Part shown: positions 14,666 to 52,757 of the stretch, piece after piece | Position numbering within the stretch: the first letter of the stretch is position 1 | How the letters are laid out: every line of letters begins with the position of its first letter | Origin: Fimbriiglobus ruber | GTDB taxonomy: Bacteria > Planctomycetota > Planctomycetia > Gemmatales > Gemmataceae | DNA: 64,000 nucleotides | Assembly: GCF_002197845.1 (NCBI RefSeq) | Contig: NZ_NIDE01000014.1 | Coordinates: 186,001 to 250,000 of the forward strand | Reading direction: 5' to 3' | The notes under the pieces: model-generated | What the model was told of the DNA's origin: nothing | The model's input: the letters and a program-made list of their open reading frames with translations, nothing else | The model's database searches: none | Translations under genes and position numbers: made by a program

Positions 14666-14741
14666 AATTTGGAGTGCGGCGCTTGACCGCCGCTTTGGTT
14701 TTTAAAAGCAAAAGCGGCGGTCAAGCGCCGCACTCCAAATT
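14666..14741. repeat. 31-bp perfect inverted repeat between convergent genes
   Basis: Two perfect 31-bp arms (14666-14696 and 14711-14741) flank a 14-nt spacer. The right arm reaches into the stop codon of the ceramidase-like gene (14740-14742). The hairpin can form in transcripts from both strands and so may act as a bidirectional terminator. The same architecture recurs at 48992-49084, with different arm sequence. Confidence 0.9.
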
Positions 14742-19010: not shown

Positions 19011-19164
19011 AAACGCCCCCGACCTGTTGAGGGGCGTGCCCTCTGTCCGGCGATCGAATCGGCAGTCGGGAATTCCAGGGCGTCCTGGCGGGAGGGCGTC
19101 TTGGGGCTCGGCCCCAAACCCCGCCGGAGGGGTCGAACCCCTCCGGACCTCCCCACATGCTCCC

Positions 19165-19204
19165 GACCCGCGGACTCATCCCAAAGCGGATGAGTCCGCG
19201 GGTC
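19165..19204. repeat. Hairpin A of the composite element
   Basis: A perfect 17-bp stem (19165-19181 with 19188-19204) closes a 6-nt loop, CAAAGC. Compared with the reverse complement of hairpin B, the stem differs at six positions, each compensated on the other side. Confidence 0.9.
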
Positions 19205-19354
19205 GCTCGCAGGGGCCTGGGTTGTTGGCGGCGGGAAGACGTCGACTCATGAGCGGCGGGATCGGATCGTTCGACGGCGGCGGGTTAGAGCCTGAGTTGA
19301 TGGCGATGGGGAGACATCGACTCTTTGCCCGGTTTTCAAAACGGCTCCGCGAGC

Positions 19355-19394
19355 GGTCCGCGGGTCGATCCGCCTTGGGATCGACCCGCGGACC
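19355..19394. repeat. Hairpin B of the composite element
   Basis: A perfect 17-bp stem (19355-19371 with 19378-19394) closes a 6-nt loop whose reverse complement is CAAGGC. It lies in inverted orientation to hairpin A, at the same distance from its 58-bp arm. Confidence 0.9.
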
Positions 19395-19625
19395 GAGAGC
19401 AGATGGGGAGGTCCGGAGGGGTTCGACCCCTCCGGCGGGGTTTGGGGCCGAGCCCCAAGACCTCACCCCACAAAAACCGCCCAGGCCCGGGCACCGGTAG
19501 CCGACGCTGACCAGACACGAAACTGATCCCGACCTGTTGCCCGATCCTTGCAGACCCGCCGTTCCGGGCGGTATGCTTGACATTCGCTCGCCCGACCAAT
19601 TCTCACCCCGCGGAGTCTCGGCGCC

Positions 19626-48991: not shown

Positions 48992-49084
48992 GGCGAGCGG
49001 GGGACGTGAGTCCCCTGATTCTTTGAAACAGTTTTTTTCTGGACGCGCTCCAAAGAATCAGGGGACTCACGTCCCCCGCTCGCC
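48992..49084. repeat. 34-bp perfect inverted repeat between two sulfatase genes
   Basis: Arms 48992-49025 and 49051-49084 are perfect reverse complements over 34 bases, separated by 25 bases that include a run of seven T. It lies downstream of sulfatase 2 and upstream of sulfatase 1 (both minus strand), so it may separate their transcripts. Confidence 0.92.
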
Positions 49085-52595: not shown

Positions 52596-52757
52596 GACCT
52601 CACCCCCCGGCCCCTCTCCTCCGAGAGGAGAGGGGAGCACGAGCGGACGGCTCGCGGATTGGGGGTGGCAGTTCGGGAAACGGCGTCCGCCCGTGTCGGT
52701 GACGTTCGTCCACGTGCTCCCCTCTCCTTTCGGAGGAGAGGGGCCGGGGGTGAGGTC
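52596..52757. repeat. 45-bp near-perfect inverted repeat
   Basis: Arms 52596-52641 and 52713-52757 pair with one inserted C and one mismatch. Each arm contains its own palindrome around CTCTCCTCCGAGAGGAGAG, so nested hairpins could form. Confidence 0.85.

Follow-up and report, generated by a model that had tools for sequence, protein, structure and literature searches.

Paired stem changes in a fold-back element family of Fimbriiglobus ruber probably record template switching

The window, which is the whole stretch of 64,000 nucleotides of Fimbriiglobus ruber DNA analysed here, carries a composite palindrome inserted a few bases past the stop codon of a YggU/DUF167 gene. The first-pass annotation placed the palindrome at 19098-19461. 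The inverted arms lie inside these bounds but the true ends had been missed, and the element extends from approximately 19030 to 19527. Recomputation agrees with the annotation that the 58-bp arm at 19098-19155 is the exact reverse complement of the one at 19404-19461. These are the longest perfect inverted arms up to 1.5 kb apart in the window; five shuffles gave 14-18 bp. They form the outer portion of longer arms, 113 nt each, with 86% complementarity and 138 nt between them. The features are as follows.

19018-19029, + strand: left target-site duplication CCCGACCTGTTG, 12 bp that adjoin the A end and recur exactly, in direct orientation, at 19528-19539; its last G possibly belongs to the element
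19030-19097, + strand: flank module A with a precise outer end, (G)AGGGGCKTGCCCTCTGTCC...GGGAGGGC, conserved in many copies and only beside units
19098-19155, + strand: left outer arm with H1 (TTGGGGC TCG GCCCCAA) and H2 (CCGGAGGGGT CGA ACCCCTCCGG), the perfect complement of 19404-19461, homogenised with the partner arm within copies
19164-19205, + strand: left H3 hairpin, type 1, 18-bp stem, loop CAAAGC
19211-19348, + strand: middle segment, in which 19215-19248 recurs imperfectly as a direct repeat at 19290-19323; found in both orientations relative to A and B among copies
19354-19395, - strand: right H3 hairpin, type 2, 18-bp stem, loop CAAGGC
19404-19461, - strand: right outer arm with H2 and H1, an inverted copy of the left arm
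19462-19527, + strand: flank module B (CTCACCCCACAAAAACCG...CACCGGTAG...) with a ragged outer end, its core conserved beside units; where a target-site duplication is present the module measures 46-67 nt
19528-19539, + strand: right target-site duplication CCCGACCTGTTG, the direct repeat of 19018-19029

The two inner hairpins pair 19164-19181 with 19188-19205 and 19354-19371 with 19378-19395. Their stems are 18 bp long and not 17 bp as annotated, but the six compensated stem differences between them are present, and so are the 6-nt loops CAAAGC and CAAGGC when both hairpins are read in one orientation. As single-stranded DNA the 364-nt strand has a predicted folding energy of -174.2 kcal/mol, against -85.3 +/- 3.95 in shuffles (z -22.5). 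The predicted fold is a four-way junction in which the outer arms form the 58-bp stem, each H3 arm folds on itself and a further stem lies inside. A like junction is predicted for 30 of 32 copies.

Other palindromic sequences occur in the window. At 48992-49084 lies a second palindromic repeat with perfect arms of 34 bp, GGCGAGCGGGGGACGTGAGTCCCCTGATTCTTTG. It belongs to a fold-back family that is likewise multicopy: BLAST gives 116 matches in the genome, and many of these are full-length palindromic copies. A 31-bp perfect inverted repeat with a short T-rich loop at 14666-14741 (TGGAGTGCGGCGCTTGACCGCCGCTTT) may represent a third repeat of palindromic type, or else a terminator. At 52604-52750 a 21-bp perfect inverted repeat is surrounded by further GC-rich complementary sequence (CCGGCCCCTCTCCTCCGAGAGGAGAGGGGAGCACG).

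A covariance model run on the whole genome (12.36 Mb in 20 contigs) gave 71 strong unit matches, which resolve into 34 pairs of inverted units plus 3 units that stand alone. Two of the pairs, L053 and L054, lie in identical surroundings and may represent a single locus at the end of a contig. The search for copies with paired changes that the annotation had proposed thus found many in the host genome, and it settled the question. Nor is the palindrome a one-off assembly artefact, given 34 two-unit copies at the window and other genome sites. Unit matches were absent from 118 relatives, two of them congeneric, and from 396 further genomes sampled more widely in the class, with few candidates scored per genome in both searches. 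Plasmid and phage records contained no match to the element, and a search of Rfam returned chance matches only, far under the gathering scores.

Each element is built as A, a unit (H1 H2 H3), a middle, the inverted unit (H3 H2 H1), and B, and is approximately 400-530 bp long. The unit of about 118 bp consists of three hairpins. H1 has the consensus TTGGGGC-TCk-GCCCCAA and is followed by the linker ACCCCGC; H2, CYGGAGGGn...nCCCTCCRG, is followed by GACCTCC; H3 reads GCTCCCG...GATCC-CAAAGC-GGATC...CGCTCGC. The two-unit cores are 285-450 bp long, except for two of about 925. The middle between the facing units is about 50-145 nt in most copies and about 200 nt in L060 and L065. Copies L064 (2223-2711) and L061 (2257-2742) have a middle of about 690 nt with ORFs of about 160 aa, and the interior of L061 looks richer in AT than the remainder. 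These cargo ORFs had no Pfam match and no meaningful NCBIfam match. The outer modules A and B are common to many copies, and away from the units the genome holds neither module, apart from one match with E = 0.057.

The two ends of the element differ. The A end is precise and its tips coincide among copies, while the B end is 46-67 nt long with unrelated tails, and by eye there is no inverted repeat between the A and B outer ends. Twelve copies have a clear A tip. In 7 of them the 8-12 bp immediately outside this tip are repeated exactly, in direct orientation, beyond B; a clean target-site duplication is missing in the other 5. When the A side of one copy was set against the B side of another, such a repeat appeared in 3 of 156 pairings. 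No empty site was found, and the homologues of the YggU/DUF167 neighbour in relatives are too distant for site comparison. Taken with the restriction to one genome, the target-site duplications indicate a mobile element and argue against a palindrome with a host function.

The copies lie between genes, for the most part at distances of about 20-230 bp from the flanking ones. According to a simple gene call the flanking genes are co-directional in 24 cases, divergent in 7 and convergent in 4, and no bias towards the 3' sides of genes or convergent gaps was seen among the copies. No transposase was recognised among the recurring neighbours; some paralogous proteins do recur there, with low identity. 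The annotation had suggested looking for a RAYT or IS200/IS605 enzyme. The genome has three Y1_Tnp (RAYT/IS200-type) genes, all of them away from the units and with flanks that carry none. There are also 16 RVT_1 matches. The genome yielded no autonomous parent with modules A and B, and no transposase or autonomous partner of the element. The annotated suggestion of a palindrome recognised by a recombinase is possible; nothing speaks in favour of a chromosome-organising site.

Pairing was analysed in 67 units with 2327 cells, which are not independent events because the copies share ancestry. A standard pair occupies 98.5% of the cells. Stem changes are two-sided in 276 cases and one-sided in one, and a single G-U pair was found in all 2327 cells. 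In H3 the paired changes comprise 137 double transitions and 94 double transversions (94 of 231, 41%). The loop CAAAGC, the foot GCTCCCG/CGCTCGC and the GATCC/GGATC segment are conserved, and the middle of the H3 stem varies only in pairs. On the unit strand H3 has no G-T pair and 14 other mismatches, 7 of which are A-C; residual mismatches that include A-C yet never G-T amount to a small asymmetry between the DNA strands. In selected structured RNAs, G-U intermediates are expected and make up a sizeable fraction of pairs. Compensatory changes passing through G-U intermediates were not what the 276 two-sided changes and the one one-sided change displayed. The near-absence of G-U and the many double transversions therefore indicate that pairing is kept at the level of DNA, unlike in a selected RNA. 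The proposal that structure is selected is not supported where RNA is concerned, given the G-U count, the H3 double transversions and the absence of Rfam matches close to gathering scores.

The arms of one copy resemble each other in H1 and H2 and not in H3. Identity over H1 and H2 is 96.2% between the arms of one copy versus 89.0% between copies (permutation p <= 1e-4), and position 13 in the H1 loop is 100% identical within a copy versus 48% between copies. Columns 13-50, from the H1 loop to H2, are near-identical within a copy and differ among copies, and this homogenisation ends from column 58. For H3 the identity is 71% within a copy versus 73% between copies, which is no arm-to-arm homogenisation. 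This division matches the predicted junction, in which the outer arms pair mutually and each H3 pairs with itself. The annotation had offered conversion from arm to arm as one account of the hairpins; this account is supported, with the refinement that the outer hairpins are converted between arms and H3 within itself.

Further changes involve whole blocks. In 4 of the 67 units the H3 foot GCTCGC is replaced by GGGAGC, which is complementary to the opposite foot, and no intermediates are found. In copy L053 the H3 loop CAAAGC is inverted to GCTTTG. The entire block from H3 through the middle to H3 is inverted relative to A and B in one set of copies (about 5 versus 9), and near-identical middles occur in flipped orientation in L037 compared with L036 and L038, and in L050 compared with L041 and L053. 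Two tandem arrays were also noted. In L047 (1858-2004) one element is bordered by four tandem 45-bp copies of the B module and H1, with the breakpoint in the linker after H1. L050 (2560-3040) has a tandem duplication of 319 bp that includes host flank, target duplication, B and H1, with the breakpoint in the H1-H2 linker. The shared H1-H2 linker breakpoint is in line with replication trouble there.

We consider it likely that the window palindrome is a small non-coding, non-autonomous fold-back (MITE-like) element whose pairing comes from template switching between its arms. The element would have inserted beside the YggU/DUF167 stop codon, duplicating approximately 11-12 bp of the target, and the enzyme that moved it probably acts in trans. 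As a single strand it would fold into the four-way junction, with the outer arms paired mutually and each H3 on itself. Replication or repair synthesis could then switch template between the paired arms and copy one arm onto the other, which would leave the outer arms identical within a copy and each H3 its own perfect palindrome. At times the switch would invert the enclosed sequence. We infer template switching over another conversion mechanism from what it predicts for inverted arms, namely homogenisation, block conversion, and inversion of loop and interior. Template switching between inverted repeats has been described to homogenise arms, invert spacers and produce multi-nucleotide changes (PMC8604942, PMC7202029). 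Arm homogenisation, block changes and spacer inversion are all present in the family, and template switching is the simplest account of its covariation.

Other explanations account for portions of these data. Recombination of the RecA type between the long inverted arms, flipping the interior and converting the outer arms while a separate process acts on H3, is possible but rather improbable. Homogenisation ending at about column 58, where the arms diverge, and an interior block that inverts as one both speak for it. Recombination or gene conversion over the 58-bp arms could give outer-arm identity and interior inversion, but not the self-palindromy of H3 with its paired double transversions, and the inverted loop of L053 is left unexplained too. 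We regard as unlikely a selection of the hairpins by an enzyme acting on single-stranded DNA (HUH/Y1 of IS200/IS605, RAYT or another structure-reading recombinase) that reads the fold and the loop while the stem sequence is free. The conserved loop and feet around an H3 mid-stem that changes only in pairs fit such an enzyme, and the genome has its three Y1_Tnp genes, but these are neither near the units nor flanked by them. Target-site duplications are not expected for IS200/IS605 elements and are found here. Selection alone, moreover, gives neither loop identity within a copy nor block conversions that lack intermediates. The conserved loops and stem feet could still reflect selection of the hairpins by a protein, which is compatible with conversion. 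The precise A tips, the ragged B end of 46-67 nt with unrelated tails, the duplications of variable length (8-12 bp) and the lack of terminal inverted repeats between the A and B ends recall a target-primed or one-ended insertion, perhaps by way of a host reverse transcriptase, for which the 16 RVT_1 matches could provide. Later deletions could also explain the ragged B end, and we judge the insertion account very unlikely.

Readings that assign the palindrome a host function fare less well still. It is highly improbable that the copies are bidirectional terminators or chromosome-organising palindromes. Their intergenic position near genes and their strong hairpins would suit that role, but H1-H3 have no T-tract, every gene orientation is found, with 7 divergent and just 4 convergent cases, and the target-site duplications and the restriction to one genome fit a mobile element. 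We give next to no credence to a structured non-coding RNA or RNA regulatory element with its fold under selection. The strong predicted fold and the many compensated changes invite it; against it stand one G-U pair in 2327 cells, the many double transversions, the lack of any Rfam family above threshold, the absence of positional bias 3' of genes or between convergent genes, and a symmetric two-unit build that reads much alike on either strand.

A further reading, which we hold to be quite unlikely, gives the element a life-cycle stage as folded single-stranded DNA, with hairpin-primed copying shaped like that of parvovirus terminal repeats that would both move the element and rewrite its arms. 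If so, the perfect pairing and the flip and flop of the interior would be by-products of transposition, and the occurrence of the tip GGGGCTCnGCCCCAAACCCCGC in other phyla and phages would be the signature of a widespread class of such elements that has yet to be described. This tip was found in 4 of 392 sampled Planctomycetota, including the host genome. In one of these genomes (G719) it lies within a distinct fold-back family whose inverted ends read GCCAGGGAGCTTCGCCCCCCGGACCCCC. In another (G685), which has nine tip-motif copies, a gene for an IS110-family transposase (DEDD_Tnp_IS110; L139:1484-2464) ends in the tip motif. Genomes of Oscillospiraceae, Desulfovibrio and Ruminococcus also contain the tip, as do viral contigs, and it is often followed by the same linker and an H2-like hairpin. 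The 202-kb viral contig IMGVR_UViG_3300035182_002389 (L159, L161, L165) carries this tip on three or more H1-linker-H2 units. Such matches across phyla reflect either common descent or convergence, and a literature search on the tip motif returned nothing relevant.

The 67 natural units of this one genome demonstrate that perfect compensatory changes can arise at the DNA level and resemble RNA covariation. The two can be distinguished by the lack of G-U pairs and by the double transversions. The family probably also constitutes a natural bacterial record of template switching, comprising arm conversion, loop inversion and interior inversion, and it points to fold-back elements that share a tip motif across several phyla and phages.

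Prokaryotic MITEs such as Correia, ERIC and RUP are likewise short, non-coding, intergenic, multicopy and palindromic, with target-site duplications and no transposase of their own (PMC10969869), and all of these traits were found here. Terminal inverted repeats and ends in common with a transposase-bearing parent were not found; the inverted repeats are subterminal, formed of three nested hairpins, the variable middle reaches 690 nt and can contain ORFs, and the genome yielded no parent transposon. Because the inverted repeats are subterminal and the A and B outer ends look unrelated by eye, we call the element MITE-like and not a MITE.

Eukaryotic fold-back elements (e.g. Tm1 and Galileo) have long inverted repeats built of sub-repeats, a variable middle and target duplications of about 9-10 bp. 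Inverted arms built of sub-repeats, a variable middle and a target duplication all recur in the present family, which differs in being bacterial and much shorter, with hairpins within the arms and non-repeated A and B flanks. In integron attC sites, which IntI recombines into cassette arrays, structure is conserved and stem sequence varies. The present units share this trait but are paired in inverted orientation and accompanied by a target-site duplication, and do not form cassette arrays. The REP/BIME/REPIN-RAYT systems also feature intergenic palindromes, inverted pairs of units, lone units, and Y1 transposases in the genome (PMC2817692, PMC3733652, PMC3116915). However, REP/BIME units are tagged palindromes of 20-40 bp (PMC3733652). 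The units described here measure about 118 bp with three hairpins, carry no GTAG/CGTC tag at the palindrome, are associated with target-site duplications, and neither neighbour nor flank a RAYT gene.

Quasipalindrome correction by template switching resembles the present case in process, with arm homogenisation, spacer inversion and multi-nucleotide block changes (PMC8604942, PMC7202029). That work concerns single sites, unlike the whole family of dispersed nested palindromes reported here. Both the process and this general kind of element were known before; the novelty lies in the nested build, the single ragged end and a record that extends over a whole family.
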